From the NCBI GenBank assembly GCA_021737565.1, contig JAIPDS010000003.1:1-64000 (forward strand): a stretch of 64,000 bases of DNA, written 5' to 3'. This DNA comes from Desulfobacteraceae bacterium (lineage in GTDB: Bacteria; Desulfobacterota; Desulfobacteria; Desulfobacterales; Desulfosalsimonadaceae). A model generated the notes under the pieces. That model ran no database searches and was not told the origin of the DNA. It saw only the letters and a program-made list of their open reading frames with translations. Of this stretch, positions 28,829 to 55,092 are shown piece by piece (within the stretch, counting starts at the first letter, position 1; every line of letters begins with the position of its first letter). The translations under genes were made by a program, and so were the position numbers.

Positions 28829-28842
28829 AATGACGCCTTGAC

Positions 28843-31647: not shown

Positions 31648-31665
31648 ATGAAAAAACCATGCCAA
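31648..31665 (-). promoter_or_regulatory. Putative sigma-54 (-24/-12) promoter of the 31.5-kb operon
   Basis: On the minus strand the sequence is TTGGCATGGTTTTTTCAT. TGGCATG fits the -24 element, and after the correct 10-nt spacing from GG the -12 element reads TTTC instead of TTGC. The same pattern, including TTTC, occurs at 54974-54991. It lies about 96 nt upstream of the start codon at 31552 and 67-69 nt downstream of tandem inverted-repeat sites. Confidence 0.75.
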
Positions 31666-31731
31666 TTCATCAGGGAAGCAAATAAATCATTATTTTAGCA
31701 TGTTATTAATTTTACAATCATGCTATTAAAC

Positions 31732-31765
31732 GTTAACTATATTTAACACGTTAACCATTGTTCAC
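31732..31765. promoter_or_regulatory. Tandem upstream activator sites (31.5-kb operon)
   Basis: Two 16-bp inverted-repeat units lie 18 bp apart: GTTAACTATATTTAAC (31732-31747) and GTTAACCATTGTTCAC (31750-31765), fitting GTTAA-N6-TTAAC with one mismatch in the second. The same arrangement with the same 18-bp step is at 55059-55092 upstream of the other sigma-54-type promoter. They are probable binding sites for the Fis-type helix-turn-helix of the activator encoded at 55257. The rest of the ~300-nt gap 31553-31852 is AT-rich and holds no gene. Confidence 0.75.
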
Positions 31766-31852
31766 ACTTTTTAATTTACATCCCGTTGCCGGCACTGCAA
31801 AAAATTTAAGGACCGATTCCCGGATTTCACCGGAAATGAAAATAAAAATTTT

Positions 31853-32581
31853 TTATGGAATTGTTTTTATATCCATGTATTGAGGATCATGGTTTGGTAT
31901 TATGATATCTGCTGCATTTTTTACTCTTAAGGCAGTATCATAGGCAATCCTGCAATCTGTATGCAACCCGCACGCAGCTACTTCAAGCCCTTTTTCCTTC
32001 ATAAACGGTGTTTGGGTAAAGGTGCTCATCTGTGAACAAAACCCTGTTATGATTGCTTTGCCTTTATCCGTGTTTATCTGAACAGACTGGCCCCCGGGGC
32101 TGTGGCCGGGAGTGTGCAGCAGGTTTATGCCCGGATATAGCTCAGTGTCGCCTTGAACAATCTTAAAACTCAAACCTTCAAATAGCTGGGGATTGTAATC
32201 AACCGAATTGAAAATATGCGGGTTTCTGGCATATTCGAGTTCTTCTTTTTGCACAATAAAAGTTGCATTCTCATAACGATAAGCAAGGGCGATATGATCG
32301 AAATGCAGATGGGTTACTATAACATTTTCTATTTCTTCGGGTTTGATGTTTATCTGAGAAAGCCCTTCTTCTAACGACATTCTTGTTTTCATGGGAAACT
32401 CAGGATTCGTAAAATGCTCCTTCTGCGCTCCAGCGTCTACTATGGTTATTGGCTCCAAACCTTCTATATACCAGATGTAACATGCGGTTTTTACTTTTTT
32501 GCCTATATTCCAGCGGTATGTCCACTGTGACATATCCCGGAAACCTTCACACAAAGCAATCGGTCTGATACTGTATTTCAT
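31853..32581 (-). CDS. Metallo-beta-lactamase-fold protein (AHL-lactonase-like), altered metal site
   Basis: This 242-aa protein has the first metal motif H91-x-H93-x-D95-H96 (THLHFDH), His in TPGHSPGG and a late IPNHDPQ. The bridging Asp, normally in a GD-S motif, appears replaced (IITGFCSQMS), so one metal ligand is missing or supplied differently; Cys may substitute. Length and order match the MBL protein encoded at 26616. It is the last gene of a minus-strand set with MmgE/PrpD protein 3, enamidase and AA_synth protein 2. A hydrolase role is inferred. Confidence 0.8.
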   Translation of the reverse strand: MKYSIRPIALCEGFRDMSQWTYRWNIGKKVKTACYIWYIEGLEPITIVDAGAQKEHFTNPEFPMKTRMSLEEGLSQINIKPEEIENVIVTHLHFDHIALAYRYENATFIVQKEELEYARNPHIFNSVDYNPQLFEGLSFKIVQGDTELYPGINLLHTPGHSPGGQSVQINTDKGKAIITGFCSQMSTFTQTPFMKEKGLEVAACGLHTDCRIAYDTALRVKNAADIIIPNHDPQYMDIKTIP

Positions 32582-32672
32582 AACAACCCCTCTTCCCGTA
32601 TTTTAATGACCTTTTAAGATCTATAGAATTTGTTCAACATATAAAGACAGTAATATTCGAAAATATTTCATC

Positions 32673-34028
32673 CTAGAATCTCATTGGACCAATCAGATCT
32701 CTTACATCTGAGAGCATCTCGATATTTTCCACCATGGAAATTAATTCGCGCCTGTCTTCGTCTGCGACAGGCAGTCCGCTGTAATCAACACATTTATTGA
32801 ACTTATTCCTGCATTCCTCGTCGCTCATTGGATTTTCGGGATTGCCCCGGGGCACGGAAACAAACTCTGATAACACTTCACCGTTGCTTTTTGTTATCCT
32901 CATCTCGGCCTGGAAAATATCTTTTTGCGGAAGATCCTGATTTACAGATACATGCACCACCCCGGCTGTCTTTTTTATTTCAGGATCCAAAATAAATTCC
33001 GTTTCAAAATCCCTTAAAAACACATCTCCACGAATCAAGGCGCAGGCCGTGGTGTAAGGGATGCTAAACTGGGCGTCCACCTGTGGATTGGTCCCGATCT
33101 GAAAAGACTTTCCCACCATTTCTGCTACCATGGAAGAAACCGATACATCGATACGATCGATATCCCCGATCCGGCCGATGCGTTTCTTGAGTTTTAAGGC
33201 CGCGTCAATGCAGGAATGTGTCATGCGGCAACTCGGATAGGGTTTGATGCTTAAATCCAGGATGGTAAAATGGTCTCCGAGTCTTTCTAAAGCACGTTCC
33301 GGATAATACTCGTTTTGTTCATAAAGGGGATAAAACCCGTAAGGTCCTGTCAAAAATTGTCTGCTCCCGGTGATTCCCCGATTTGACAACAGTGCGGAAA
33401 GAACCCCCGCGGAAGCAGCAAATCCGGGTTGCATCCGCTTGACTAAACGTCCCTCTATCAGACCCTGAGCATTGCCCGCAGTCTGGGCATAGACAATTCC
33501 CAGTGCATTGGAAATGCCTTCTTTATCCATCCCGAGAATTTTTGCTGCGCCCGCTGCGGCGCCGAAACTGCCGCACGTGGCAGTGCGTATCCAGGAAAGG
33601 GGGCGATCAATGGCCAGGCTCAGACGACAAACAAGGTCAGTCCCCAAAACAAGTGCGGCAATAAACCTTTTTCCGCTTATTTTTGTTTTGCTTTCCGCGG
33701 CAGCCAAAACAGCAGGCAATACGCTAACAAAGGTATGCAATGCTGAATCATCCAGCGTATCGTCAAAATCAAGGGCATGCATCATGGCACTGTTGACCAT
33801 GGCCGCCTGGGGCGGTGAAACGGTCAGGTCACTAAATAAAACAGACGCTCCATTTATACATTGCCAGGAACCAAGCAATTCCACTGTTTCCCGACAGCCC
33901 GGTGCCCTGCTGCCGGGAAATGCCACAGCCAAAGAATCCAGTATCAACTTCTTGCAGTATCTGATAACGTCATCACCCAGATCTTCGAAGCTGATTTTCT
34001 CAATGTTGTTGATAATTTTTTCTTCCAT
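32673..34028 (-). CDS. MmgE/PrpD family protein 3
   Basis: This 451-aa third MmgE/PrpD paralogue has LDSLAVAFPG, MMHALDFDDTLDDSALHTFV, GRLVKRMQPGFAASAG and IKPYPSCRMTHSCIDAA, the last being the family's substrate-site segment. It lies 44 nt after the enamidase gene. It is divergent from proteins 1 and 2, suggesting a separate reaction. A dehydratase, decarboxylase or epimerase of a tricarboxylate- or dicarboxylate-like compound is expected. Confidence 0.87.
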   Translation of the reverse strand: MEEKIINNIEKISFEDLGDDVIRYCKKLILDSLAVAFPGSRAPGCRETVELLGSWQCINGASVLFSDLTVSPPQAAMVNSAMMHALDFDDTLDDSALHTFVSVLPAVLAAAESKTKISGKRFIAALVLGTDLVCRLSLAIDRPLSWIRTATCGSFGAAAGAAKILGMDKEGISNALGIVYAQTAGNAQGLIEGRLVKRMQPGFAASAGVLSALLSNRGITGSRQFLTGPYGFYPLYEQNEYYPERALERLGDHFTILDLSIKPYPSCRMTHSCIDAALKLKKRIGRIGDIDRIDVSVSSMVAEMVGKSFQIGTNPQVDAQFSIPYTTACALIRGDVFLRDFETEFILDPEIKKTAGVVHVSVNQDLPQKDIFQAEMRITKSNGEVLSEFVSVPRGNPENPMSDEECRNKFNKCVDYSGLPVADEDRRELISMVENIEMLSDVRDLIGPMRF

Positions 34029-34072
34029 GGATTATTCTCCCTCTCCCTGACAATGGCCCGGACCTGCCCAAC

Positions 34073-35233
34073 TTACTGACCTGTTACTGTGGACAGCCTG
34101 TTTGCCAATGGAGAATTCCGGCTTCTGTTTACCTGGACCTGTCCGTCACTTAAAACAATGGATATCCCTGGAATATCGCCTCGCTGTATTGCTTCAAGAG
34201 CGTTATTTGCAACAGAACCCGCCGGTGCGTCGCAAATCAGTAGGTCCGCCGGTTTGCCCTCCTCGATCGTGCCGGTTGCAAGGCCAAAAATTTTCGAATT
34301 ATTGCCCGTGGCCAGGGCGATACAATCCTCGGGTTTAATCTTGCCCAAAGAGGACAATTCGCAGATGGTCTTTATTACGCCAAGAGGTATAACACCGGTT
34401 CCAGTGGGGGTGTCGCTTCCTATGCAAACTCTGTGAAACACATCGTATTTTTCAGCCAGTTTCAAAATGTGTAATGCGGATCTTAAATTTCCGGCCTGAA
34501 CCACCTGAAGGGCCATATCAGTATCTCTTACAACCTGCTCAAGCCCGTCATCATCCAGCGAAGTTGTGCCGCCATTTATATGACCGCATACATCCACCCC
34601 CAAATTGATTAATGCTTCATGATCTATGGGACTCGATCCCGGCAAGGAGGCTCCGCCGCTATGTGCCATCACGATCATGCCGTATTTTTGCGCCATGCCA
34701 ACATCTTTTTGCCCTTCGGCCGGTCCGGAGTAGGCCCCGAATCCGTATTTTGCATACCGGACTCCGCAATCGGCCATTTCTTTAAAATCTTGTTCGGTAA
34801 GGCCGGGTTCAAGCTTTACCGAGCCACCATTGACCTTCATTCCGTTGGGCCGAAAGTTTTGAAAACACTTCAGCGTTGCTATGGCAAAAGCCTTGACTGC
34901 TATCGGATCATGCGGCATGCCCGGTGCGTGCACTCCTTCGCTTGCCGTTACAACGCTTGTTACCCCGCCATGCACATAAGAAGCAAGGAAGTCTACCTGT
35001 TTTTGCCTGGGGGTATAATCACCAAAAACGGTATGACAATGAGAATCAATCAATCCGGGAGTCACCGTCGTATTTTTTGCGTCTATCAGGATGTCGGCTT
35101 TGTCGACATTAAGCTTTTGTCCGATTTTTGAGATAACTCCATTTTCGCATATTATACTGTCGGCATCTAATTTACCTTTCTTCAAATCACCTGAAACAAG
35201 AATTCCTATATTTTTAATCGCTGTGACTGTCAT
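34073..35233 (-). CDS. ena: Enamidase-like cyclic amidohydrolase
   Basis: This 386-aa member of the amidohydrolase superfamily has metal ligands in DSHCH (His65, His67), AHSGG and GHINGG, and the late Asp in IGSDTPTGTG. It resembles enamidase of Eubacterium barkeri along its length: IKNIG, VSGD, VTPGL-D-H-H, GDY-PRQK, HGGVT, LTE-DF-EM, PSGTGLIPLG-like, and a C-terminal GDIPGIS-VL-DG with SRN-P. Enamidase hydrolyses 1,4,5,6-tetrahydro-6-oxonicotinate to ammonia and 2-formylglutarate. Here it may open that or a similar lactam ring. Adjacent are MmgE/PrpD gene 3 and AA_synth gene 2. Confidence 0.88.
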   Translation of the reverse strand: MTVTAIKNIGILVSGDLKKGKLDADSIICENGVISKIGQKLNVDKADILIDAKNTTVTPGLIDSHCHTVFGDYTPRQKQVDFLASYVHGGVTSVVTASEGVHAPGMPHDPIAVKAFAIATLKCFQNFRPNGMKVNGGSVKLEPGLTEQDFKEMADCGVRYAKYGFGAYSGPAEGQKDVGMAQKYGMIVMAHSGGASLPGSSPIDHEALINLGVDVCGHINGGTTSLDDDGLEQVVRDTDMALQVVQAGNLRSALHILKLAEKYDVFHRVCIGSDTPTGTGVIPLGVIKTICELSSLGKIKPEDCIALATGNNSKIFGLATGTIEEGKPADLLICDAPAGSVANNALEAIQRGDIPGISIVLSDGQVQVNRSRNSPLANRLSTVTGQ

Positions 35234-35256
35234 TTTTGCTCTCCATTCTTATTTGC

Positions 35257-35832
35257 TTATCTTAAACCGTCTTTTCCTGTTGCTTCTTCTTTTGACAACC
35301 CGCCAAGACGATAATTAAGACGCCCCCTGTTTGCCACAACCGCTATGACTGCCACTTCATCCGGCAAAGGAGCGTCAGGAACTCTGACTTCCATGGCGTC
35401 GTAATGGGACCGGACAAACAAAGCATCTTTATAAGCCATGGGAATGTCAATAGCTGTCCCCGGGCCACCCAGCTTGCTGGCCGATGGAATCCACGCCGCC
35501 CCTCCCCCGACAGCTTTTCTCAACCCCCTGGCAAACTCGGTTGTCAGAAACATATTGGCATGATCCATCTCCCCGTTAATACCTACTATTCCTCCCTTGC
35601 CATAACTTTCCGCCGGTTCTTTAAGTGCATTAACGGCTTCTTCTCCAAGATAATCTCCGAGTTCCTCCCCGGCTGCAACAGCCTCGGCTAAATCCTCTAC
35701 ATGCCTTCCCGCATAAGGATTCTTTACAACCACCACGGCCGCAACCTTACACAACGGCCGCCTGGCCACTATCCCTGACTCACTTCTAATTTTTTCTTTT
35801 ACTATAAAAGACTTACGAATTTCTAGTTCCAT
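35257..35832 (-). CDS. Amino-acid-synthesis (AA_synth/DUF1185) family protein 2
   Basis: This ~191-aa paralogue of the protein at 25960-26541 shares VVKNPYAGRHVEDLAEA, YGKGGIVGINGEMDHANM, ASKLGGPGTAIDIPMAYK and MEVRVPDAPLPDEVAV. The ATG at 35832 is used because AAGGAGG lies upstream and family homology starts there; a longer frame to 35895 overlaps the preceding gene. The reaction is unknown. Repeated placement with MmgE/PrpD and MBL-fold genes argues for a catabolic role rather than amino acid synthesis. Confidence 0.88.
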   Translation of the reverse strand: MELEIRKSFIVKEKIRSESGIVARRPLCKVAAVVVVKNPYAGRHVEDLAEAVAAGEELGDYLGEEAVNALKEPAESYGKGGIVGINGEMDHANMFLTTEFARGLRKAVGGGAAWIPSASKLGGPGTAIDIPMAYKDALFVRSHYDAMEVRVPDAPLPDEVAVIAVVANRGRLNYRLGGLSKEEATGKDGLR

Positions 35833-35852
35833 CTCTTTTCCTCCTTGTTTTA

Positions 35853-36854
35853 TTAAACGGAAAAAACCGAATTTAAAATTTCCCCCATATCCCACACCCT
35901 GATACCAAGTTCATTTTCGTGCTTCATCAGGTTGATTAAACATACAGGGCACAAGACAAGAACGTCCCGGCCGGTTTCGGCAAGCTCTTTTGCGCGAATA
36001 TAAGAAATAGACCGGCTTAAGTCCGGATATGCATACTCCACAGGCCCTCCGCAGCAGGCTGTATCCATCCCCGTGTTTTCCGGTTCAATCACCTCGATGT
36101 TTAAGCGATTGGCAACGGTTCGCACAGCTTCTATTATACCCAGATTCCGGGTCATGACACAGGAATCATGCAGGACGAATTTTTCCGGAAACCCGGATGG
36201 CCGATATTCGGGCGAAGGAAATTGCAGCTCTGCAAGTAATTCCAGATAGTGGCGAATATCAAGATTAAAATTGGAGATGATTCGGGGATAGACTTCCCGG
36301 AGCATAAATGTCGTGTGGGGATCTACTGTTACGACGGTTTCGGCCCCTGCGGATTTAAGCTTATTATACACTGATCCTGCAACCGGCATAACCTTTTCTT
36401 CCAACTCCAGCTCCCAGAGCAGGACTCCGCTGTAGGGTTCATTGTCATGCAGATATGCAGGATGAACCCCGACTCCGGCCAGCCCTGATACAATACCGCA
36501 AAGAGCTGCCTTACTCCTGCTGCGGATATTTTGCCCCCGTCTGGCCTTTACGCGAAGAAGCGGATCAATAGTCAATGCACTCACAACCTCTGCTATTCTG
36601 GCAAATCCCTTGACCGAAAGCAGCGGCAGCAAGGGCCGTGCTTTTTCAGTCATCCCGGCGACCTCTACAATAAAGGGAAGCATCTGATACATGCGGGCCG
36701 TGTAAAGAAGCACCGGCCCCCTGTCAGGCAAACTCAGTCCATCGCTCCATCGTGTCCAGTAAACGGTTTTAACTCCCAGGGGATCACCTGTGCGCTCGAG
36801 GTTGTCCTGGATTATATTTAAAGCCTGTGAAATTAAAACCTTAGAGCTTTGCAT
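35853..36854 (-). CDS. CCG-domain Fe-S oxidoreductase subunit (GlcF/HdrB-like)
   Basis: This ~333-aa protein has one clear cysteine-rich CCG motif (HDSC near residue ~233, then ACCGGPVEYAYPD, then LCPVCLIN) as in HdrB/GlcF subunits, and an N-terminal half with a degenerate counterpart (VHPAYLHDNEPYSG). It contains no ferredoxin domain; that part is encoded separately by the gene that overlaps its start (36841-37182). The ATG at 36854 is preferred over 36899. Together with the FAD oxidase it probably forms a membrane-associated hydroxyacid dehydrogenase complex. Confidence 0.85.
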   Translation of the reverse strand: MQSSKVLISQALNIIQDNLERTGDPLGVKTVYWTRWSDGLSLPDRGPVLLYTARMYQMLPFIVEVAGMTEKARPLLPLLSVKGFARIAEVVSALTIDPLLRVKARRGQNIRSRSKAALCGIVSGLAGVGVHPAYLHDNEPYSGVLLWELELEEKVMPVAGSVYNKLKSAGAETVVTVDPHTTFMLREVYPRIISNFNLDIRHYLELLAELQFPSPEYRPSGFPEKFVLHDSCVMTRNLGIIEAVRTVANRLNIEVIEPENTGMDTACCGGPVEYAYPDLSRSISYIRAKELAETGRDVLVLCPVCLINLMKHENELGIRVWDMGEILNSVFSV

Positions 36855-37182
36855 GTTTCCCCTCGCGGGCCAGGTTGGTTGAAAGAAGATAACGGCCACT
36901 GTGAATCAATTCGCAAATATCCAGATTTTGGCCTTTACTCTTGCATATGTTTTCACAGCGCCTGCACTTCAGGCAGCTATATAAGCAGTAGGTAAGGGAG
37001 TCATCAAAATCAAGCCGCCCGGCTAACAGGTACTTAATAATCTGCAGTCTTCCGTATGGTGAAAAACTCTCCACCCCTCCGGACGCCTGGTAGGTAGGGC
37101 ATACGTCAATGCAAAACCGACAGGATCGGCATTTTGAAATTTCCCCAAGAAGAGCCTCCCGCTGTTCCTCCTGCCGGTTCAC
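36841..37182 (-). CDS. 4Fe-4S ferredoxin-type subunit of the oxidase complex
   Basis: This 113-aa protein has two 4Fe-4S motifs, CRSCRFCIDVCPTY (residues ~18-31) and CLKCRRCENICKS (~73-85), spaced as in the N-terminal part of GlcF. Its start overlaps the FAD-oxidase stop (ATGA-type overlap at 37179-37182) and its stop overlaps the CCG-protein start. It would move electrons from the flavin subunit to the CCG subunit. A normally single GlcF-like chain is thus split into two genes here. Confidence 0.9.
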   Translation of the reverse strand: MNRQEEQREALLGEISKCRSCRFCIDVCPTYQASGGVESFSPYGRLQIIKYLLAGRLDFDDSLTYCLYSCLKCRRCENICKSKGQNLDICELIHSGRYLLSTNLAREGKHAKL

Positions 37183-38591
37183 AGCCAGCCCTCCAGGTTC
37201 CCGCGATTTAAAATATTTTTGGGGTCAAAGGACTTTTTGAGCCGAAAATAGGCATCAATGTATGCGGCGCCGTATTTTTTTTTGAGAAAATCTGCGCGCT
37301 GGGCCGTCAGCCCCCACTCACCGCCACAGCCTCCGTATTTAACATTAAGCTCCTCGGTCCTTTGCCGCACTTCCATGGTAACGGACTTTTTTACTTCGTT
37401 GGTTATATCCTTGCTCGGGATAAAGGCGTAGGCGTGTATCGTGGGAGCGCCGATATGCCCGAAAGAATAAAATTCATTGCCCTGATAGCTTTTAAGATTT
37501 AAAATTATTTTTTTTGCTTCGCGGAAGGCATCCTTGAGTTTGTCCACCCGGGGAGTAATTTCGCTTCCGAAAGTGGATCCCAGCCTGTATACATAATTGC
37601 CGGCCTCTGCACGACTGCTCCATATCTTTTCCCATTCCCGGTTATCTGAAACAATACGTGCCTCTATAGGATTTGTTTTTTGCAGGAAGTCTGAAAAAAT
37701 CCGGGCCTTTTCCTGGCAACCAACAGAAGTCGCCGAATGCATGCTTATCATGGCCACTGCACCGCCGGGCTGCGGCAGACCCACTGCTTCGTATCCCACC
37801 TGCGAAGCTTTTTCATCCAAATATTCAAAAAAAAGAGGGGTAGGGATGCCTTGCCGGTACATACCCATTACCGCATCAATGATTTGCTCGGTACTGTTAT
37901 AGTATGCAACGATGTTTTCCATGTAAGGTTTTGGTATCAGGCGCATACGAATTCGGGTAATCACGCAGAACAAGCCCTCTGAACCGACCAGGAATTTAGT
38001 GGCTTCAATACCCGCGGGTTTACGGGTTGATTCCGTTCCGGTGCATAGAATTTCTCCCGTGGGCAGGACCACCTCAAGGCCAAGAACGTAATCTCCCGGC
38101 TTACAAAGGCTGGCATCCACTGCGTGGGCACTTGTATTTACCGAAATGGCGCCTCCGATAGTAGCAACAAGTTCACTGCCGGGAAACGTAGGAAGCATGG
38201 CGTTATAAGGATTCAATGCTTTTCTGAGCTTGCTTATGTGCATGCCCGCCCCGACTTCAAAGTATCCGCGCTCCGGCATGATGCAAAGCTGCTGCATTCT
38301 TCCCATGTCAAGTACAATGGAGTTGGTTTTGGGCCTTGCGAGCCCTACCAGCGAAGTCCCTGATCCATGAGTATGAACGGGTATCTCCCTTGAATTGGCA
38401 TACATTAGAATACCGGAGACTTCCTCACTATTGGACGGCCGGGCAACAGCGTAAGGAATATGGTGAGATTCCAGATCCCAGGGCATGGTGTCTTTGGCAT
38501 AGGCAAAAGCCGTGGGGCGATCTGTGAAGGCATTGTCCTTGCCGACTATCCTGCCTAAGTCTTTAACAAGCTTTTTTAAGTCAATCTCCAT
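37179..38591 (-). CDS. FAD-linked oxidase (GlcD/D-lactate dehydrogenase-like)
   Basis: This ~470-aa VAO/PCMH-type flavoprotein has the FAD-binding loop PVHTHGSGTSLVGLARP, GAGMHISKLRKALNPY, TIGGAISVNTSAH, GSEGLFCVITRIRMRLIP, and a C-terminal GGCGGEWGLTAQRADF with KKSFDPKNILNRGN. It oxidises 2-hydroxyacids such as glycolate or D-lactate in known relatives. The ATG at 38591 follows GGAGG with a 6-nt gap. With the two Fe-S genes downstream it would pass electrons toward the membrane or menaquinone. Glyoxylate/glycolate or a branched 2-hydroxy diacid are possible substrates. Confidence 0.9.
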   Translation of the reverse strand: MEIDLKKLVKDLGRIVGKDNAFTDRPTAFAYAKDTMPWDLESHHIPYAVARPSNSEEVSGILMYANSREIPVHTHGSGTSLVGLARPKTNSIVLDMGRMQQLCIMPERGYFEVGAGMHISKLRKALNPYNAMLPTFPGSELVATIGGAISVNTSAHAVDASLCKPGDYVLGLEVVLPTGEILCTGTESTRKPAGIEATKFLVGSEGLFCVITRIRMRLIPKPYMENIVAYYNSTEQIIDAVMGMYRQGIPTPLFFEYLDEKASQVGYEAVGLPQPGGAVAMISMHSATSVGCQEKARIFSDFLQKTNPIEARIVSDNREWEKIWSSRAEAGNYVYRLGSTFGSEITPRVDKLKDAFREAKKIILNLKSYQGNEFYSFGHIGAPTIHAYAFIPSKDITNEVKKSVTMEVRQRTEELNVKYGGCGGEWGLTAQRADFLKKKYGAAYIDAYFRLKKSFDPKNILNRGNLEGWL

Positions 38592-38664
38592 TGATTCCTC
38601 CGCAGCCCTTTTCCTCATTTTGCATACCAAACGCTTGCGCCCGGGAGGGGATTTGAAAAAATTA

Positions 38665-40443
38665 TCACATGCCTTCAGGTTTGCCGTCTTTATCCCATCC
38701 CCGTGCCCTGTAATATTCTTTTAACATCCGGTTCATCTGATCTTCGGTAATGATTTTATTTGTCTCCGGCAAGGCCTGCTTGTGAAAATGCTTGGGCAAC
38801 CGGTCTTCATCTATGGTCAACCCCTCTCTTATATTAAAACGGCGGGTATTGTCTGAAACCGATGCGGCTAAAGCCCTCATCCGGCCTTTATCCATGTCCA
38901 TACCGGTAACGGCATTGATGATTTTGGCCAGTTGCTCCCATTGATACAAATCCCGGTAAAAACGGCACAGAATAAGGCAGTCAAACACTGTCAACCTGTC
39001 TTCCCATTCGGCAAAGACTTCTGCCTTTCCTTCTATTTGCTCCGGGTCAACCATTCCCGCCAGTTCGGGTTTGTAGAAAGTTGCACGAAGGTGGCATGCC
39101 CCCCGGTCACTGGTTCCGTAGGAAAGGGCCATTCCTTTGAGCACCCTCGGGTCATATCCGGCAGGCTCCAGCCCCTTGACGTGCACCGCCCGGTCTTCCA
39201 TGCCCCACTTTCCTGCCGCATGGCGGATACCCCCGGCCAGTATATCTCCGATGCCGCGCCTGTAGGCAATGTCTTCAATAAGCCGGGCTATCTTGTCTAC
39301 TTCTCCGTAATCTATATCAAAATCGAGCTTTCCCTCCAGAACTGCCTCTATGGTAAAGCCCGCAAGATTGCCAACGGTCATGGTGTCTACCCCGAGCCGG
39401 TCGCCGATATCGTTCAGATAGGCTATTTCCTCAATTTCTTTGACTTCGCAAAGGCCGCCGAATGCAAAGATAGTTTCGTATTCTGGCCCTTCTATCCTAA
39501 GCCCCTTGTGCCGCCCCTGTTTTACTGTGGAAAGCCGTCCGCAGGCCATAAGGCAATGCAGGCAGGCATGGGGTTTTACCTCGCACCGATCGTGCAACGC
39601 TTCGGCATTTATATTTTCACTGTGGGAGGCACGGCCTAAATTCCAGTAACGTGTAGGAAATCCGCCGGCCTCGTTTAAAATATCGACCAGCATCGGGGTG
39701 CCTTTGGTTTTGTATGCATGCACGCCCTTATCTTCCTTGGATATTTGGGCTATTTCCCTGTTGAAGCGCTTTACAAGCTCCGGCTCCGCCGTCTGTTTTT
39801 TTGTGTTTCCCCAAAAGGCCACCGCCTTGATGTTTTTCGAGCCCATGACTGCCCCAACGCCGGTTCGCCCTGCAGAACGCCAGTAATCGTTTTCTATTAC
39901 CGCAAAAACCACCCGGTTCTCGCCGGCAGGCCCTATGGTGATAACCCCGCACTTTTTCGCATCCGGTCGATTCTCCCTTATCCACGCCCTAACCCGGTCC
40001 TCTGTTTCATAAGTGTCAAGACCCATAAGCTCGGCGGCGTCATGGAACACAATGCCCTTGTCACTGATTTCGATCCAGGATGGTCCGGGGCAGGCCCCCC
40101 TGATAACAAAAGCGTCAAATCCGGTTCTCGCCATGTATTCTGCAACCGTTCCGCCGGAATACGACTCTGAAAAATATCCAGTTTGCGGTGACTTAGTGAA
40201 AACTCCGTATCTGGAAGATCCCCAGACGGCGGTTCCCGCGGTTGGGCCGATTGAAAATATAAGATGATTTTGAGGGCTTAACGGGTCAACCTTTGGCGGG
40301 TTTCTATCAAGCAGCAGTTGTGCGCCCAGGCCTTTGCCTCCCAGGGTTTGTGAAATGATTTCATCGGAAATATTTTCTATCCGGTATTCCTGCCGGGTCG
40401 CATCTATGCTGACAATGGTGTTATGACAACCGAACATATCCAT
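38665..40443 (-). CDS. Aldehyde:ferredoxin oxidoreductase (tungsten/molybdenum pterin)
   Basis: This 592-aa AOR-family protein has the N-terminal pterin-binding domain (GGKGLGAQLLLDR, GVFTKSPQTGYFSESYSGG, RTGVGAVMGSKNIKAVAFWG) and Cys ligands for 4Fe-4S in ACLHCLMACGR with a late Cys in VFDCLILCRF. It would oxidise an aldehyde to an acid with ferredoxin, or run in reverse. It lies 73 nt upstream of the FAD-oxidase gene. In an enamidase-type pathway, a formyl-dicarboxylate would be an obvious candidate substrate, competing with the dehydrogenase encoded at 24970 (inference). Confidence 0.93.
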   Translation of the reverse strand: MDMFGCHNTIVSIDATRQEYRIENISDEIISQTLGGKGLGAQLLLDRNPPKVDPLSPQNHLIFSIGPTAGTAVWGSSRYGVFTKSPQTGYFSESYSGGTVAEYMARTGFDAFVIRGACPGPSWIEISDKGIVFHDAAELMGLDTYETEDRVRAWIRENRPDAKKCGVITIGPAGENRVVFAVIENDYWRSAGRTGVGAVMGSKNIKAVAFWGNTKKQTAEPELVKRFNREIAQISKEDKGVHAYKTKGTPMLVDILNEAGGFPTRYWNLGRASHSENINAEALHDRCEVKPHACLHCLMACGRLSTVKQGRHKGLRIEGPEYETIFAFGGLCEVKEIEEIAYLNDIGDRLGVDTMTVGNLAGFTIEAVLEGKLDFDIDYGEVDKIARLIEDIAYRRGIGDILAGGIRHAAGKWGMEDRAVHVKGLEPAGYDPRVLKGMALSYGTSDRGACHLRATFYKPELAGMVDPEQIEGKAEVFAEWEDRLTVFDCLILCRFYRDLYQWEQLAKIINAVTGMDMDKGRMRALAASVSDNTRRFNIREGLTIDEDRLPKHFHKQALPETNKIITEDQMNRMLKEYYRARGWDKDGKPEGM

Positions 40444-46269: not shown

Positions 46270-46311
46270 CCTGCCCTCCTTGATATCTATTATAAACAGT
46301 TGTAAAAAATA

Positions 46312-47697: not shown

Positions 47698-47769
47698 TTA
47701 ATTTTTCTATATCCTGTCACAAGGCGGGTGAGCATCAAAATTGCCTGTAATTTTCAAAAACCTGCCGTA

Positions 47770-48945
47770 TTAAATAATCCCCCTTTGCTTCAAATTCTTG
47801 CAGTCGGCTTCCGTATAGCCAAGCTCGCCTAAAATCTTATTATTTTCCCCGCCCAATAAGGGAGCGGGCCGGTTTATCGTACCAGGGGTGTGGCTCAGCT
47901 TTATAGGATTGCCCAGTATTGTCTGAGAGCTTTCATCAGGGCCAGGAATATTTTGCAGCAAGCCTCTTACGTTAAAATGAGGGTCGGATACCGCCTCTTC
48001 AAAATTTCTTATTACACAGGAACACAGATCCTTTCCCTTAAATTCCTCGTCCCATTCAGAGGCGGTCCTGGTAAGAAATTTCTCTGTTAGAACCTCGATG
48101 GCGTAATCCGGATATTCACTATCATTGTCACGTATTTTGGGATCATCAATGCCTAGAATGTCACACAAATTGTGCCAGAATTGATCTTCAAGGGCCCCGA
48201 CTGCAAGGTATCTGCCGTCCTTTGTAGGGTAGACCTGGTAACGGGGCGAGCCTCCGTTGGTAAGCTCGCCCCCGCGGGAGGGAATCTCACCGGAGGTAAA
48301 ATAAGTGCCTGCAGCATGATAAAGCCAGAGAAATGAACAGTCCATCATGGAAATATCTATATATTGGCCAGTTCCGGTATTATTTCTTGCAAGCAAAGCC
48401 ATCAGGATAGCCACCAGTGCAGGATAAGAGCCACCACCGATATCTGCGACCAGGATACCCGGCAGAGTGGGGGGGCTGTTTTTCGTGCCGGCCAGATCCA
48501 GTATACCGTTAAGCGCCAGATAATTGATATCGTGGCCGGCAAAATTCTTATGCGGGCTTTCCTGGCCGAAACCGGTAATCGAACAATATATCAACCCTTT
48601 ATTAATTTTGGAGACCTCTTCGTATCCAAGCCCTAATCTGTCCATTGCCCCGGGTCGAAAACCTTCGATTAACACATCGCTTTTTTCTATGAGTTCAAGA
48701 AAAAGTTTTTTGCCTTCCTCTGCTTTTAAATTTAGAGTCAGGCTTTCCTTATTCCGGTTGAGAATCGAGAAATTCCCGCTGTAGCTCGGATACCGGGGAG
48801 TATAATCCCGCATCAAATCGCCGGTACCGGGCCTTTCAATTTTGATAACCCGGGCACCAAAATCCGCCATTATCATGGAACAAAAAGGCCCCGGCAGAAG
48901 CGTTGAAAGATCCACCACCGTTATACCTGAAAGGGGTTGTCTCAT
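47770..48945 (-). CDS. Family III CoA-transferase-fold protein, alpha-methylacyl-CoA racemase-like
   Basis: This ~391-aa protein has LLPGPFCSMIMADFGARVIKIE at the N-terminus (family III fold). His138 in FAGHDINYLALNG and Asp168 in ILVADIGGGSYPAL correspond to the two acid/base residues of alpha-methylacyl-CoA racemase. A racemase of 2-methyl-branched acyl-CoA is therefore more likely than a CoA-transferase. The ATG at 48945 is preferred to TTG at 48966. In this cluster it could epimerise a 2-methyl-branched intermediate before dehydrogenation (inference). Confidence 0.82.
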   Translation of the reverse strand: MRQPLSGITVVDLSTLLPGPFCSMIMADFGARVIKIERPGTGDLMRDYTPRYPSYSGNFSILNRNKESLTLNLKAEEGKKLFLELIEKSDVLIEGFRPGAMDRLGLGYEEVSKINKGLIYCSITGFGQESPHKNFAGHDINYLALNGILDLAGTKNSPPTLPGILVADIGGGSYPALVAILMALLARNNTGTGQYIDISMMDCSFLWLYHAAGTYFTSGEIPSRGGELTNGGSPRYQVYPTKDGRYLAVGALEDQFWHNLCDILGIDDPKIRDNDSEYPDYAIEVLTEKFLTRTASEWDEEFKGKDLCSCVIRNFEEAVSDPHFNVRGLLQNIPGPDESSQTILGNPIKLSHTPGTINRPAPLLGGENNKILGELGYTEADCKNLKQRGII

Positions 48946-48987
48946 AAAAACGGTCACCTCCCGCAACGAATAAATTCAAATAATAAC

Positions 48988-49839
48988 CTATTTGTAAGAA
49001 TGAAATCCTTCCCCTGTTTTTATCCCTAATTTGCCGCCCTCCACTTTTCGGTTCAAAATACTCGGGGCAGAGAACCTCGGATCGTTTATTCGCCTATACA
49101 ACTGCCCGGTTAAGTGCAAATGCTTATCAAGCCCGATTTTATCTATTAACTCCAACGGCCCCTTGGGATATCCAAGCCCCATCCGAATAGCTGTATCTAA
49201 GTCCTCTTTATCGGCAAGGCCTTGATCGTATGCCTCCAGGGCCCTGTTCATATAAGGTACAAACAGGTAATTCACCAGGAATCCGGGGGAATCCTTGACC
49301 ACCACGCATTCTATATTCAGCTCTGAGCAAAACTCTACGGCCAGTGAGATCGTTTCCTCTGAAGAATTCTCCGTCCTTACAATTTCTACAAATTTTGTTC
49401 CCCGAACCGATTCCAGGAAATGTAACCCCAGGCAACGCTGAGGATTTCCTGCAGAGCCTGCAATTTCTGTGGCGGAAAAACAGGAGGTGTTTGTAGCCAG
49501 AACCGCATCCTCCCGGATAAGACCTGATAGTTCGGAAAAAATCCCTTTTTTAATCTCAACATCCTCAACAGCCGATTCAATGACCACATCGGCATCCTTT
49601 AAACTTGTCATATCACTGGTAAAGGTTATTTTATTTAATATATCTTCTTTTTCTTCTTTTGTGATAAATCCGGAGTTTATGGCATTGCCCAGTGCCTCGC
49701 TTAATTCCTTTTTGCTCTTTTCAAGGCCTGATTCATCCTTTTGCCAGGCAATAACAGGGAATCCCCCGCCCGCTATTACCTGCACAATTATGCCCGCGGC
49801 CTTGTCAAAACCTGCCACACCAACATTTTGTATTCTCAT
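48988..49839 (-). CDS. 3-hydroxyacyl-CoA dehydrogenase-like protein with degenerate NAD loop
   Basis: This 283-aa member of the 3HCDH family retains the catalytic His region ([16 protein letters not shown]), NTSCFSATEIA and the C-terminal GLGYPKGPLELIDKIGLD. The N-terminal Rossmann motif, normally GxGxMGxGIA, reads GVAGFDKAAGII, so the nucleotide-binding turn is altered. It lies 14 nt after an intact paralogue (49854-50735). It may be a partner subunit, bind a different cofactor, or be non-dehydrogenating. Confidence 0.82.
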   Translation of the reverse strand: MRIQNVGVAGFDKAAGIIVQVIAGGGFPVIAWQKDESGLEKSKKELSEALGNAINSGFITKEEKEDILNKITFTSDMTSLKDADVVIESAVEDVEIKKGIFSELSGLIREDAVLATNTSCFSATEIAGSAGNPQRCLGLHFLESVRGTKFVEIVRTENSSEETISLAVEFCSELNIECVVVKDSPGFLVNYLFVPYMNRALEAYDQGLADKEDLDTAIRMGLGYPKGPLELIDKIGLDKHLHLTGQLYRRINDPRFSAPSILNRKVEGGKLGIKTGEGFHSYK

Positions 49840-49853
49840 ATTTACTTCCTCCT

Positions 49854-50735
49854 TTAGGTACCAAACATTCCTGACTCTCCGTATTTATAAAAGCCCCGTC
49901 CGGTTTTACGCCCCAAAAATCCGGCATCCACCATACGTTTGACCAACGGAGGCGGATAAAAGCTGTGATCGTGAATCTGGTTAAACAAAGCAAGAGATAC
50001 CCTAAGCTGGGTGTCCATGCCTATATAGTCCAGCAGCTCAAAAGGCCCCATGGGATATCCCAATCCATGTTTTACCGCTTTATCAATATCTTCAACCGAG
50101 GCAAGGCCGTTTTCATAGGCCCTGATACAGTCATTGTTGAAAGCAACGATAAAATGATTCAGAATAAAACCCGGCCTTTCCTTTGTATTGACAAGTACCT
50201 GGCCCAGGGTTTCACCGAATTCGACAGTTCGGTTAAATGTATCATCACTTGTCTGCAGCCCCCGGGTTACTTCAACAAGTTTCATAACTTGGGCCGGCAG
50301 GCAAAAATGCATGCCGATAACCTGTTCCGGCCTGCCTGAACCCGCGGCAATTGACGTGATGGAAAGAGTTGAGGTATTTGTTGCAAAGATGGTTTCCTTG
50401 GGACAGGATTCATTTGCCTGGCTGAAAACCTTTTGCTTGACCTCCAGATCCTCGAAAACAGCCTCTATAACAAAGCTACACTTGTCCAGGGCATCATAGT
50501 TCATGCTCCAGGTAAGCTTTTCGCCCATGATCTCGTCCTTTTGCTGAGCGCTCATTTTCCCCTTTTTAACGCTCTTGGCGAAAAACTTGTCGGCAAAAGC
50601 CGCGGCCTGATCCAGGGCGCTTTGCTGGGTGTCAATAACAATGGTATTAAATCCTGCCCGGGCCGAGACAATCGCTATGCCCACACCCATCGTTCCGCAC
50701 CCTAAAACGCCTACATATTTGGATTTCTCGCTCAT
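49854..50735 (-). CDS. 3-hydroxyacyl-CoA dehydrogenase
   Basis: This 293-aa NAD-dependent 3HCDH has the N-terminal VGVLGCGTMGVGIAIVSA, catalytic MHFCLPAQVMKLVEV, NTSTLSITSIA and the C-terminal GLGYPMGPFELLDYIGMD. It oxidises a 3-hydroxyacyl-CoA to a 3-ketoacyl-CoA. It lies 16 nt after the acyl-CoA dehydrogenase gene and just upstream of its degenerate paralogue. It probably acts after hydration in a beta-oxidation-like sequence. Confidence 0.93.
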   Translation of the reverse strand: MSEKSKYVGVLGCGTMGVGIAIVSARAGFNTIVIDTQQSALDQAAAFADKFFAKSVKKGKMSAQQKDEIMGEKLTWSMNYDALDKCSFVIEAVFEDLEVKQKVFSQANESCPKETIFATNTSTLSITSIAAGSGRPEQVIGMHFCLPAQVMKLVEVTRGLQTSDDTFNRTVEFGETLGQVLVNTKERPGFILNHFIVAFNNDCIRAYENGLASVEDIDKAVKHGLGYPMGPFELLDYIGMDTQLRVSLALFNQIHDHSFYPPPLVKRMVDAGFLGRKTGRGFYKYGESGMFGT

Positions 50736-50751
50736 GGGTTCCTCTCCTTAA

Positions 50752-51915
50752 TCACCATTTTTTCTTTCCGGTAAAATATCTGCCGATAACAATCTTTTGT
50801 ATCTGGCTGGTGCCTTCATAAATCTGGGTTATTTTTGAATCACGATATATCCGTTCCACCGGATACTCCCGGCAGTAACCATAACCGCCGTGAATCTGGA
50901 CTGCATCAGAGGCGACGCTTTCTGCCGTCTCTGATGCAAAAAATTTGGCCATTGAAGCCTCTGCTGAAAAATCTTCTCCTTTGTCCATCAAATCCGCAAC
51001 ATGAAGGATCATTCGCCATGCGGCCTGGATTCGGGTAGCCATTTGCGCGATCATAAACTGAACGCCCTGATGCTTAATAATGGGCTTGCCGAACTGAACC
51101 CTCTGATTGGCATAAGCAACGGCTTCATCAAAGGCTGCCTCTGCAATGCCTGCGGCCTGGGCCGCTATATTGGGCCTTGAATAGTTTAGGGCGTGCAGCA
51201 AAATTTTAAACCCGTCCCCCGGGTTGCCAAGCATATGATCATCCGGCACATGGCAGTTGTTGAAGGTGATTTCAGCGGTGCTCGAGGCACGAAGTCCCAT
51301 CTTTTTTTCTTTCTTCCCGCTTGCAAAGCCCGCCATATCTTTGGTTATAATAAAAGGGCTTAAGCCTAGTATTTCATTATTGTGTTTAACTTTTGCAAAC
51401 ACTGTCAGGATATCTGCCACATCACCCGTAGATACAAAGATCTTTGTTCCGTTTAAAACATATCCGTCATCTGTCTTTTCTGCCACCGTGGTCATAGCGT
51501 TTGCATCCGAGCCGGCATCGGCTTCAGTAATTGAAATACCCCCCAGTGCTCCGTCTATAAAACGGGGAAGAAATTTCTTTTTCTGCTCCTCGGTTCCGAA
51601 TTGCACAATAGGGTGACAACCGTGGGATGTGGTTGCAAAGATGATCCCGGTAGAGGCACATGCTTTTGATATTTCTTTTAGTATCAGGAGCCATGCAGTT
51701 TTCGAAATTAAGTCTCCGCCGTACTCCTGCGGGATAAAAAGGCTGTTAAGCCCGATTTCATTGATTTTTTCCATATTCTCCCATGGAAAAATTTCCTGCT
51801 CGTCAATCTCGGCCGCTTTTGGAGCTATTTGCTTTCTGCACAGCTCTCGCACCGTTTTAAGGATCATCTGTTCTTCTTTATTTAGTATAATCCCTTTATT
51901 GAAAAAGGTCTTCAT
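50752..51915 (-). CDS. Acyl-CoA dehydrogenase
   Basis: This ~387-aa FAD-dependent acyl-CoA dehydrogenase has ISITEADAGSDA, KIFVSTGDVADI, QRVQFGKPIIKHQGVQ, QIHGGYGYCREYPVERIYRD and the catalytic Glu in IYEGTSQIQKIVIGR, placed as in short-chain enzymes. It introduces an alpha,beta double bond and passes electrons to ETF. The ATG at 51915 has AGGAG about 12 nt upstream; GTG at 51942 lies within the preceding gene's end and is less likely. Cyclohexanecarboxyl-CoA-, methyl-branched or glutaryl-type substrates are possible. Confidence 0.93.
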   Translation of the reverse strand: MKTFFNKGIILNKEEQMILKTVRELCRKQIAPKAAEIDEQEIFPWENMEKINEIGLNSLFIPQEYGGDLISKTAWLLILKEISKACASTGIIFATTSHGCHPIVQFGTEEQKKKFLPRFIDGALGGISITEADAGSDANAMTTVAEKTDDGYVLNGTKIFVSTGDVADILTVFAKVKHNNEILGLSPFIITKDMAGFASGKKEKKMGLRASSTAEITFNNCHVPDDHMLGNPGDGFKILLHALNYSRPNIAAQAAGIAEAAFDEAVAYANQRVQFGKPIIKHQGVQFMIAQMATRIQAAWRMILHVADLMDKGEDFSAEASMAKFFASETAESVASDAVQIHGGYGYCREYPVERIYRDSKITQIYEGTSQIQKIVIGRYFTGKKKW

Positions 51916-51938
51916 AAGTCTTTTTATCTCCTTTTTTA

Positions 51939-52700
51939 TCACCAGGAAATTAATTGGCCGCCATCCACGCAGTGAACATGACCCGTAATATAATCAGACT
52001 GCTGCGAACATAAAAAAGCCACAAAATATGCCACCTCTTCAGGCTCTCCTATTCGTTTCGCAGGTATTTTGCTTAAAATCAGGTTGCGCAATTTTTCATT
52101 CTCAAGGGCGCCCTTTGAAATATCTGTCATGATATGGCCGGGAGCCACCGCATTAACCTGAATATTATTTCTGGCCAATTCCACGGCCATGCACCGGGTC
52201 ATCGCTTCAATGGCGGCCTTGGATGTACAGTATGCAACTTGTTTCCTGACTCCGAGCTGCCCCCAAAAAGAACCCATATTGACAATTTTTCCGCCGCCTC
52301 TTTTCACCATCTCGCCTGCTGCATCCCTGGAAAGCGAAAACATTGCAATAAAATTTACATCCATTACCCGGCGAATTTCTTCATCGCTCAATTCAAGAGA
52401 GCTTTTCTCCAGATGAATTCCTGCATTATTAATAAGGAAATCAACTCCGCCAAAGGCGGAAATGCACTTGTCTAACATATGCTTCCTGTCATCTGCCGAA
52501 GTCACGTCAGTCTTGACTGATATTGCCCTGCCGCCTTCTTCTTCAATTTCGGCACAAACCTGAATCAGAAGCTCTTCATTTCTTGCACAACAAACAACAT
52601 TAACCCCGCTTTTGGCCAAAACTAACGCAATCGCTCTGCCAATGCCACGACTGGCGCCCGTAACCACAGATGTTTTATCTTTCAGACCTGTTAATTCCAA
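51939..52700 (-). CDS. Short-chain dehydrogenase/reductase (FabG/BadH-like)
   Basis: This 253-aa SDR has the NAD(P) loop TGASRGIGRAIA, NNAG, catalytic Ser in NMGSFWGQLG, the YCTSK motif (YxxxK) and NAVAPGHIMTDI. It starts at TTG, supported by GAGGTG 5 nt upstream. In a cyclohexanecarboxylate-type pathway the equivalent step is BadH, oxidation of a 2-hydroxycyclohexane-carboxyl-CoA just before BadI. The next gene downstream of this one's promoter side encodes a BadI/MenB-like protein, so that pairing is suggested but not proved. Confidence 0.9.
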   Translation of the reverse strand: MELTGLKDKTSVVTGASRGIGRAIALVLAKSGVNVVCCARNEELLIQVCAEIEEEGGRAISVKTDVTSADDRKHMLDKCISAFGGVDFLINNAGIHLEKSSLELSDEEIRRVMDVNFIAMFSLSRDAAGEMVKRGGGKIVNMGSFWGQLGVRKQVAYCTSKAAIEAMTRCMAVELARNNIQVNAVAPGHIMTDISKGALENEKLRNLILSKIPAKRIGEPEEVAYFVAFLCSQQSDYITGHVHCVDGGQLISW

Positions 52701-52783
52701 TAGATCACCTCATCTTCCCGGAAAATTCGGTTTTCGTTTTTCCGTAAAAGCGGTTAAGCCCTCTTTTTAATATACTGATCTTC

Positions 52784-53563
52784 TTACTTGTAGAACTCGT
52801 CCTGATTCGGCTCTTCCTTCCGGCTGAAAGACCTGTTTAATTCCTTGGCTTCACGGGATTCAACGTAGTAAGTGAGCAAAAGGTCATGGGCCATTCTTGA
52901 CATGCCGGCCACGCCGCTGTTTCTGGCTGTAAAGGAGGCTTTCACAGAGTAAAGCGCCTGGGGCCCGCGATTGATTAATTCACTGCACCATTGCTCAACT
53001 TCTTCTTCCAGCTTATCCGGAGGGACAACCGAGTTTATCAACCCCATATCAAGGGCCTGCTGTGCGCTATATTTTCTGCCGAGCATCCACATCTCCTTTG
53101 CTTTTTTCTTGCCCACCAGATCCTCCAGATACCATGTGCCGTAACCCGCATCAAAGCTTCCCATCATAGGTCCCACCTGCCTGAAGACCGATCTGTCCGT
53201 GGCAATCGTAAAATCACATACTACGTGAAGTACATTTCCTCCTCCCACGGCGAAACCGTCAACAGCCGCTATAATTGGTTTGGGATGCTTATCCATGAGA
53301 TCATAGAGGTCGAGTACCGGCAATACGCCTTTATAGGAAAAAGTTTTTTCAAGATCCGCCTTATCACCCCCGATGCAAAAGAATTTTTCGCCGGCCCCTG
53401 ATATAACGGCTACCCGAACATCTTCGTCTTTTCTGGAATCTTCCAGCGCATCCTTCATCTCAAGCAAGGTCTGAGCCCTGAACATGTTGGCATTCGAAGG
53501 ACGATTGATAATTACTTTAGCTACCTGGTTCTTTTTCTCGTATATTATATCCTCGAATTGCAT
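52784..53563 (-). CDS. BadI/MenB-type crotonase (2-ketocyclohexanecarboxyl-CoA hydrolase-like)
   Basis: This ~259-aa crotonase-fold protein begins MQFEDIIYEKKNQVAKV, like BadI of Rhodopseudomonas. It keeps FCIGGDKADL (oxyanion hole), DGFAVGGGNVL, FRQVGPMMGSFDAGYGTWYL and VGKKKAKEMW, which BadI and MenB (naphthoate synthase) share. MenB is unlikely inside a catabolic operon without other men genes. BadI hydrolyses the ring of 2-ketocyclohexanecarboxyl-CoA to pimelyl-CoA. ATG at 53563 is chosen; AAGGAGG lies 7 nt upstream. Its presence suggests an alicyclic or heterocyclic ketone intermediate is opened. Confidence 0.88.
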   Translation of the reverse strand: MQFEDIIYEKKNQVAKVIINRPSNANMFRAQTLLEMKDALEDSRKDEDVRVAVISGAGEKFFCIGGDKADLEKTFSYKGVLPVLDLYDLMDKHPKPIIAAVDGFAVGGGNVLHVVCDFTIATDRSVFRQVGPMMGSFDAGYGTWYLEDLVGKKKAKEMWMLGRKYSAQQALDMGLINSVVPPDKLEEEVEQWCSELINRGPQALYSVKASFTARNSGVAGMSRMAHDLLLTYYVESREAKELNRSFSRKEEPNQDEFYK

Positions 53564-53614
53564 CACCATTCCTCCTTATGATAATTTCCGTTTTAACTGA
53601 CCGTCGTTTCTAAA

Positions 53615-54802
53615 TTACTTACTCCTCTTTATGCGGTCAGCCTCCGAATCTGCCAGCCATTCCTCATAAACCTCCCGGTTATGCTCGCCGAGCCTTGGCG
53701 GGACTCTTGGGGAGCCTTCCCGCGTTTCTCCCAGTTTCCAGGGAGCTCTTACCTGCGGAATTTCTCCGCCTTCATCGTCTTGTATATGATAAACTGTTTT
53801 TCTGTATTTTACATGCGGATCTTCCACGAGTTGATTTATGTAATATATAGGTCCGCACGGCACCCCCTTCTCGGAGAGATACTCAAACCAGTACTGGGCA
53901 TCTCTCGTCATAAGAACCTTTTCAAACGACTCGATAATTTCTAAACGACGCTCTCTGCGGTCGGCATTGGTCTTATAGGCATCTGATTCCAAAAATTCTT
54001 CAAAACCAAGGAGCTTGCAGGCTCTCTCCCATATCTTGTCATTGCCTATAGCAACGTTTAGATAGCCATCCTTGGTTCGCAAGGGTTGATAAATGGCAAT
54101 AGGGGTACTCTGGTTACTGTCGGGTACAGGCAATACCCCGGTAGACATGTAGCTGACAATTCTCGGTGTAATAAACGACATGATGCTCTCCACAAGATTG
54201 GCATCTATATAATCGCCTTCTCCTGTGAATATACGGCGGTAAAGGCAGCAGACAATTGCAAAACATGCATTGTGGGCGGCCAGAATATCTCCTGCGGCCG
54301 TGCCAACCTTCTCCGGCTCATTATCGCGCCCGGTAACGCTCATTATTCCGCCTATACCCTCAGAGATCAGATCATAACATGGCCGGTTTTTATAAGGCCC
54401 GCTCTGGCCAAAGCCCGTGATGGAACAGTAAATTATTGCGGGATTATGCTGTTTTACCTTTTCATACGTTAAATCATACTTCTGCAAGGTTTTCAATCCC
54501 AGGCTAAGCACGAAAACATCCGCTTTTTTGATGAGCTCCTGCAATGTGGCCCTGTCGTCAGGTTGATTGATATCCAGGGTAATGCTTCGCTTATTCCGGT
54601 TTACACTTAAAAACCATGGGCTTACGCCCTGTTCCGTAAAAGGGGGGCCCCAATGGCGGCTGTCATCTCCTCTTTCGGGCGGTTCAACTTTAACAACATC
54701 GGCCCCCATATCAGACAACAGCATGGTGCAGAAAGGACCCGCGTAAGACATCGTTAAATCCAGCACCCTTATACCCTTTAGCGGCATCTCTAAATTTCCC
54801 AT
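53615..54802 (-). CDS. Family III CoA-transferase (CaiB/BaiF type)
   Basis: This 395-aa protein has YAGPFCTMLLSDMGADVVKVE, RNKRSITLDI, YCSITGFGQSGPY and the catalytic Asp in GTAAGDILAAHNA, as in formyl-CoA transferase relatives. It moves CoA between an acyl-CoA donor and a carboxylate. Unlike the protein at 47770 it lacks the GHDINYL His motif, so a true transferase is expected. It is the first gene of the right-half operon, behind the sigma-54-type promoter at 54974-54991, and may activate the initial acid. Confidence 0.9.
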   Translation of the reverse strand: MGNLEMPLKGIRVLDLTMSYAGPFCTMLLSDMGADVVKVEPPERGDDSRHWGPPFTEQGVSPWFLSVNRNKRSITLDINQPDDRATLQELIKKADVFVLSLGLKTLQKYDLTYEKVKQHNPAIIYCSITGFGQSGPYKNRPCYDLISEGIGGIMSVTGRDNEPEKVGTAAGDILAAHNACFAIVCCLYRRIFTGEGDYIDANLVESIMSFITPRIVSYMSTGVLPVPDSNQSTPIAIYQPLRTKDGYLNVAIGNDKIWERACKLLGFEEFLESDAYKTNADRRERRLEIIESFEKVLMTRDAQYWFEYLSEKGVPCGPIYYINQLVEDPHVKYRKTVYHIQDDEGGEIPQVRAPWKLGETREGSPRVPPRLGEHNREVYEEWLADSEADRIKRSK

Positions 54803-54973
54803 TTGTCATATCTCCCAGGCATCTTTGTAAAATGAAATGCTCACATTAAACCACGGATTCGCTTTTCTTGTTCCTCATCTTCACGGTCATCGCCGCTTAT
54901 TCGTTTTTTCACAAATACGATAACAACGGTTCGTTGACAAAATATCGGGCCTGTGTTATTTAAAAAAAAACTA

Positions 54974-54991
54974 ATGAAAAAAGTGTGCCAA
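54974..54991 (-). promoter_or_regulatory. Putative sigma-54 (-24/-12) promoter of the 54.8-kb operon
   Basis: On the minus strand it reads TTGGCACACTTTTTTCAT. TGGCACA fits the -24 element; GG is followed after 10 nt by TC, so -12 reads TTTC rather than TTGC. The match to the promoter at 31648-31665 is 15 of 18 positions. It lies about 172 nt upstream of the start codon at 54802. Confidence 0.78.
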
Positions 54992-55054
54992 ACGTTTAAT
55001 TGGCATTATAAGTATTTATATTAACAGGTTATACTTAATGAAAAACCGCCATAG

Positions 55055-55092
55055 ACATGTTAATTATAATTAACATGTTACCTATAATTAAC
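55055..55092. promoter_or_regulatory. Tandem upstream activator sites (54.8-kb operon)
   Basis: Two 16-bp units, GTTAATTATAATTAAC (55059-55074) and GTTACCTATAATTAAC (55077-55092), lie 18 bp apart, fitting GTTAA-N6-TTAAC. The first sits in a perfect 24-nt palindrome (55055-55078, arms ending ACATGT). Distance to the -24 GG is about 70 bp, essentially the same as at the 31.5-kb promoter. They are likely binding sites of the adjacent activator and possibly autoregulatory. Confidence 0.78.

Follow-up and report, generated by a model that had tools for sequence, protein, structure and literature searches.

In a stretch of 64,000 nucleotides from an uncultured Desulfobacteraceae bacterium of the sulfate-reducer type (contig JAIPDS010000003.1, hereafter the window), two sets of catabolic genes very probably form one sigma-54 regulon, both operons being co-controlled by the product of the gene at 55257-56933. 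A preliminary description of this DNA had proposed that one regulator governs both, and we infer the same with good support, reading from promoter and enhancer sequences in the window and from the loci of related activators. The system is of a known switch type, a sigma-54 regulon with a PrdR-like activator; it counts as a variant because of its base at -13, its activator loop and its locked 36-bp enhancer.

Two control regions built from the same blocks

The elements of the two control regions are as follows.

31648-31665, minus strand: sigma-54-like promoter 1, TTGGCATGGTTTTTTCAT, with GG at -25/-24 and TC replacing GC at -13/-12
31682-31706, minus strand: third shared block, ATAACATGCTAAAATAATGATTTAT, between enhancer 1 and promoter 1
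31731-31766, minus strand: enhancer 1, 36 bp, abutting 18-bp dyads CGTTAACTATATTTAACA and CGTTAACCATTGTTCACA as read on the plus strand
54974-54991, minus strand: sigma-54-like promoter 2, TTGGCACACTTTTTTCAT, with the same deviation at -13 as promoter 1
55008-55032, minus strand: third shared block, ATAACCTGTTAATATAAATACTTAT, between enhancer 2 and promoter 2
55058-55093, minus strand: enhancer 2, 36 bp, abutting 18-bp dyads TGTTAATTATAATTAACA and TGTTACCTATAATTAACA as read on the plus strand

Both sigma-54-like sites that had been claimed on the minus strand are present, and the odd -12 element noted for them is a G-to-T change at -13, which gives TTTC in place of TTGC at each promoter. At both, the GG at -25/-24 lies within TTGGCAC, and the GC that should follow ten bases on is TC; the two exact sigma-54 consensus sites elsewhere in the genome retain GC (TTGC). 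Taken by itself, the sigma-54-like string is weak evidence: the window contains 2 matches when up to 3 mismatches are allowed, and 1.7 would be expected. The full promoter string without mismatch occurs at these two sites only in the whole assembly, where a single ordinary rpoN gene was found, its RpoN box (ARRTVAKYRE) intact. A small hairpin, TGCCAATTAAACGTTTGGCA (54986-55005, minus strand), overlaps promoter 2, and a T-run comes after it; promoter 1 has no counterpart of this hairpin.

The paired GTTAA-N6-TTAAC sites of the preliminary description are all where it had placed them, but in each pair one of the two dyads is imperfect. The sites at 31750-31765 (GTTAA-CCATTG-TTCAC) and 55077-55092 (GTTAC-CTATAA-TTAAC) each carry one mismatch. 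A more fitting description of each tandem is a pair of 18-bp dyads, NGTTAA-N6-TTAACN, that abut each other, one arm of the tandem being imperfect. The distance between the TGG and the edge of the enhancer is 66 bp at promoter 1 and 67 bp at promoter 2; this is the same spacing as the 69-70 bp given earlier from site to GG, measured differently. These distances put the enhancers between about -93 and -128, close to the 100-150 bp at which enhancers usually lie (PMC7057263). The 36-bp double dyads are the predicted upstream enhancers for an AAA+ activator.

The tandem dyads are not a product of chance. Enhancer 2 (16.5) and enhancer 1 (14.5) rank first and second in the window for the double-dyad score, which never rose above 13.5 in 20 first-order Markov windows. 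A genome-wide scan with the composite dyad matched these two places only in the 2.65 Mb assembly, the reversed-pattern control giving 1 match per strand at up to 2 mismatches; at both places the sigma-54-like site is in the correct orientation. Since the assembly is 88% complete, further targets may be absent from it. The uniqueness of the composite to the two promoters, in a genome with one ordinary sigma-54 gene, is one of the grounds for co-control by a single regulator.

A third block of 25 bp, missing from the preliminary description, stands in the same register to the promoter in both regions (19 of 25 positions identical; none of 5000 shuffles was as good), and it has no further match in the assembly at up to 3 mismatches. 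Other candidate elements in the stretch between enhancer and promoter were rejected. One-mismatch matches to an IHF site are placed differently in the two regions, and 7-bp inverted repeats (31 and 29 bp overall) are expected in 15-23% of shuffles. Helical phasing of the enhancer-promoter distances was judged unconvincing, with a mean resultant length of 0.28-0.29 at 10.5-11 bp against 0.17-0.25 at control periods.

The presence of three common blocks in register might also reflect duplication of an ancestral control region, the likeness being due to descent and not to present co-control, and one copy having perhaps decayed; enhancer 1 would then be the weaker copy (14.5 against 16.5). However, identity between the two regions is only scattered once the enhancer, the third block and the promoter are set aside, and the genes downstream are unrelated. 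We consider this explanation very improbable. The parts that were kept are those a regulator needs, so common descent and present co-control are in any case compatible.

Another possibility is that a different regulator, such as a repressor, uses the dyads as its operator, that transcription is driven by sigma-70 and that the sigma-54-like strings are incidental. Indeed, promoter 1 also matches a sigma-70 pattern (TTGGCA-17-TAAAAT) at 10 of 12 positions, both sites lack the G that normal sigma-54 promoters have at -13 and, as stated above, a sigma-54-like string alone is not improbable. In contrast, a sigma-70 pattern was looked for at promoter 2 and none was found; the two strings are near-identical, lie at the same distance from the dyads and, in their exact form, occur nowhere else in the assembly. 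Moreover, no other regulator stands out among the open reading frames of the cluster, and the dyads match the syntax described below for relatives of the sigma-54 activator encoded next to them. Transcription by sigma-70 under another regulator is improbable, if somewhat less so than mere duplication.

The activator and the enhancers of its relatives

55257-56933, plus strand: sigma-54 activator, PrdR-like, divergent from operon 2

The co-control reading assigns both promoters to this gene. Its product has an N-terminal PAS-like region, a second PAS-like domain (residues about 118-205), an AAA+ domain (244-411; Sigma54_activat, 206 bits against a cut-off of 20.2) and a C-terminal Fis-type HTH (514-552; HTH_8, 53 bits) with the recognition helix GLSRPMLYKK. 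The best NCBIfam model is PrdR (NF041552), which scores 392 bits and misses the equivalog cut-off of 795 bits; the protein is PrdR-like, not PrdR. Its nearest relatives are 43-47% identical, with similarity starting near residue 106. The structure model (mean pLDDT 80, pTM 0.50) is good for the second sensory domain and poor for residues 1-110. No relatives were found in viral contigs.

The most telling new evidence is provided by these relatives. Their bEBP genes adjoin a 36-bp element, TGTATCA-N7-TACATGTAG-N6-TGATACA, which consists of two abutting 18-bp dyads and occurs in Desulfobacterales, Syntrophaceae, Desulfomonile, Syntrophomonadaceae and other lineages. The element was first detected by an unsupervised score and then by a matrix, which gave 102 matches in the relatives' loci against 1 in the reversed control; with a single-dyad matrix, for which no spacing was assumed, 70 pairs had a step of exactly 18 bp, whereas the control contained no such pair. 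Beyond the element, a TGGCAC-N5-TTGC promoter was found at 96-206 bp in 52 cases, often at 152-157 bp; most relatives combine the 36-bp syntax with an ordinary -24/-12 promoter, and most promoters next to these enhancers retain TTGC. All these counts are inflated by related sequences, though the lineages are diverse. The genes downstream are catabolic: among 33 cases, SDR proteins were counted 11 times, acyl-CoA dehydrogenases 5 times and TRAP transport 3 times, and TRAP binding proteins and aldehyde dehydrogenases are also among them.

Recognition helices and half-sites pair as GIHRTLLYKK with TGTATC, GIHRSGLYQK with TGTCTA and, in the window, GLSRPMLYKK with TGTTAA. The variant with TGTCTATA and GIHRSGLYQK is found in a sub-clade that belongs to the taxonomic family of the window's genome. 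The syntax is constant across these variants, and half-site and recognition helix thus change together. The window's activator falls within the group of bEBPs that have a 36-bp double dyad, but its half-site is different; in 389 genomes sampled from the class, this half-site type was absent beyond 3-mismatch matches at control frequency. The shared syntax links the type of enhancer to the type of regulator and speaks for joint control of the two operons.

Across the family, the 36-bp double dyad marks PrdR-like activators of Desulfobacterota and syntrophs (loci L019-L127 and L149-L152). At L065, L070, L074, L078, L079, L092 and L097, the region adjoining the end of the bEBP gene contains one more dyad, the third. 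Its distance to the second dyad of the pair is 70 bp (69 bp in L074), and it sits on the way to the promoter.

The GAFTGA loop of the window's activator reads GSFTNA, with F and T retained. The change from A to S at position 2 is common in relatives; the change from G to N at position 5 was seen in none of them, and among the bEBP open reading frames of the fetched loci only the window's protein has N there. NorR with G266N or G266D is a functional, fully constitutive activator (PMC2941729). By analogy, it is possible, though we would not favor it, that the sensory domains fail to repress an activator with the GSFTNA loop, so that its mere presence would keep the operons switched on; with equal reserve, control might then lie in activator level or in regulation of the ATPase. 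NorR senses through a GAF domain and not a PAS domain, however, and its mode of repression need not apply here. A natural GAFTDA sub-clade among the relatives shows that a non-glycine residue can be fixed at this position, but it is silent on regulation.

The loop contacts DNA near -12 (PMC9770992), and that of PspF senses DNA conformation downstream of -12 (PMC7057263). The GSFTNA loop and the T at -13 could be a co-adapted pair, the L1 loop having changed with its promoter element, and the activator might open its own promoters while ordinary sigma-54 promoters would be opened poorly, or the reverse. The idea is attractive, but its basis is one coincidence, of one activator and two promoters, and we regard both the pairing and its consequence for promoter choice as unlikely. 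In the GAFTDA sub-clade (L149-L154), TTGC promoters are present wherever a promoter was found beside the double dyad. A rule by which non-glycine at position 5 goes with T at -13 was rejected for this reason, and the combination of GAFTDA with normal promoters argues against a simple coupling of loop and promoter.

Genes under the two promoters

The genes downstream of the two promoters were assigned as follows.

31205-31552, minus strand: first gene of operon 1, a 115-aa small membrane-type protein, missing from the gene list of the preliminary description
29614-31143, minus strand: sodium:solute symporter (PF00474), operon 1
21625-29589, minus strand: rest of probable operon 1, downstream limit uncertain, with a 248-aa protein of unassigned family, two MmgE/PrpD proteins, a metallo-beta-lactamase-fold hydrolase, a PF06684 protein, a HIBADH-type dehydrogenase and an OYE-type flavoenzyme
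31853-54802, minus strand: genes read from promoter 2, with gaps of 529 bp and 279 bp, encoding a CoA-transferase, a BadI/MenB-like crotonase, an SDR, an acyl-CoA dehydrogenase, two 3-hydroxyacyl-CoA dehydrogenases, a second CoA-transferase, NDP- and AMP-forming ligases, a nitrilase, an AOR, GlcD- and CCG-type proteins, a PF06684 protein, an enamidase, an MmgE/PrpD protein and a hydrolase

The two gaps in the gene run of promoter 2 may hold further promoters. It is plausible that the two operons belong to one pathway, as had been suggested, and that this pathway would degrade a single compound. As no more than a reasonable guess, a cyclic and perhaps nitrogen-containing acid would be taken up, its ring opened and the product passed on to beta-oxidation. 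The enamidase is a close homologue of the enamidase of nicotinate fermentation (PDB 2vun, 353 bits); its relatives are 44-59% identical, and the closest (59%) has no other catabolic genes nearby. An orthologous cluster was searched for in other genomes and none was found.

In three genomes, an enamidase and a PF06684 ('amino acid synthesis') protein are encoded within a few kb of each other (window 34073-35895; L178 9245-13447; L179 8890-13075), and this proximity suggests a functional link. The 248-aa protein of operon 1 (28843-29589) matches no Pfam or NCBIfam model, and a search of 389 genomes sampled from the order found no homologue.

The proposed switch and related systems

From the arrangement described above, we infer binding of the activator, looping and an inducing signal. 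The PrdR-like protein would bind the two abutting 18-bp dyads upstream of each promoter and assemble as an AAA+ ring. It would then loop onto RNA polymerase-sigma-54 held at TTGGCAYR-N6-TTTCAT and open the polymerase-promoter complex with ATP. Promoter 1 would thereby start the genes for the small membrane protein, the symporter and the MmgE/PrpD proteins, and promoter 2 those for CoA-transferase and acyl-CoA oxidation. The points against this explanation are the missing -13 G at both promoters, the GSFTNA loop, the sigma-70 fit of promoter 1, the negative search for an orthologous cluster and the 88% completeness of the assembly.

Enhancer sites of the type TGT-N10-12-ACA are known for PrdR and other bEBPs in Clostridiales regulons (PMC6615313). 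The window resembles PrdR-type systems in the PAS-AAA+-Fis HTH architecture of the activator, in TGT-N12-ACA dyads, often more than one per promoter, and in a regulator gene that adjoins its targets; two or more operons per regulator are also common. In contrast to those systems, the dyads of the window are locked as an abutting 36-bp pair, the half-site is GTTAA and no proline reductase genes are present. Compared with ordinary sigma-54 promoters, the likeness extends to TTGGCAC/T, correct spacing, upstream enhancers, an AAA+ activator and rpoN in the genome, whereas both window promoters have T for the near-invariant G at -13.

NorR binds a GT-N7-AC motif, unlike the dyad of the window, and its GAF domain senses nitric oxide, whereas the sensory regions here are PAS-like. 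Asparagine at loop position 5 is an artificial mutation in NorR and natural in the window's activator. The two systems are alike in having several dyads upstream of a -24/-12 promoter and in a GAFTGA loop whose position 5 matters for regulation in NorR (PMC2941729).

The bEBP of Roseovarius pacificus (L050) pairs with the window's activator in the tree (support 96/77, but both on long branches), lies among genes for MmgE/PrpD, CoA-transferase and acyl-CoA dehydrogenase, and has a loop that begins with GSFT. It differs in being 43% identical to the window's activator and in having the loop GSFTGA, and a 36-bp double dyad was searched for at its locus and none was found. At this locus the relative stands beside an additional rpoN gene (4032-5462 and 5683-7383).

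To conclude, our results point to a concrete regulon in an uncultured lineage, in which one regulator would be linked to two sets of catabolic genes, spanning 23 kb and about 10 kb. The natural asparagine in the loop, together with the T at -13, offers a natural test case for the interplay of activator loop and -12 element. Moreover, the 36-bp syntax may serve as a simple rule for finding the targets of many orphan sigma-54 activators in Desulfobacterota and syntrophs.
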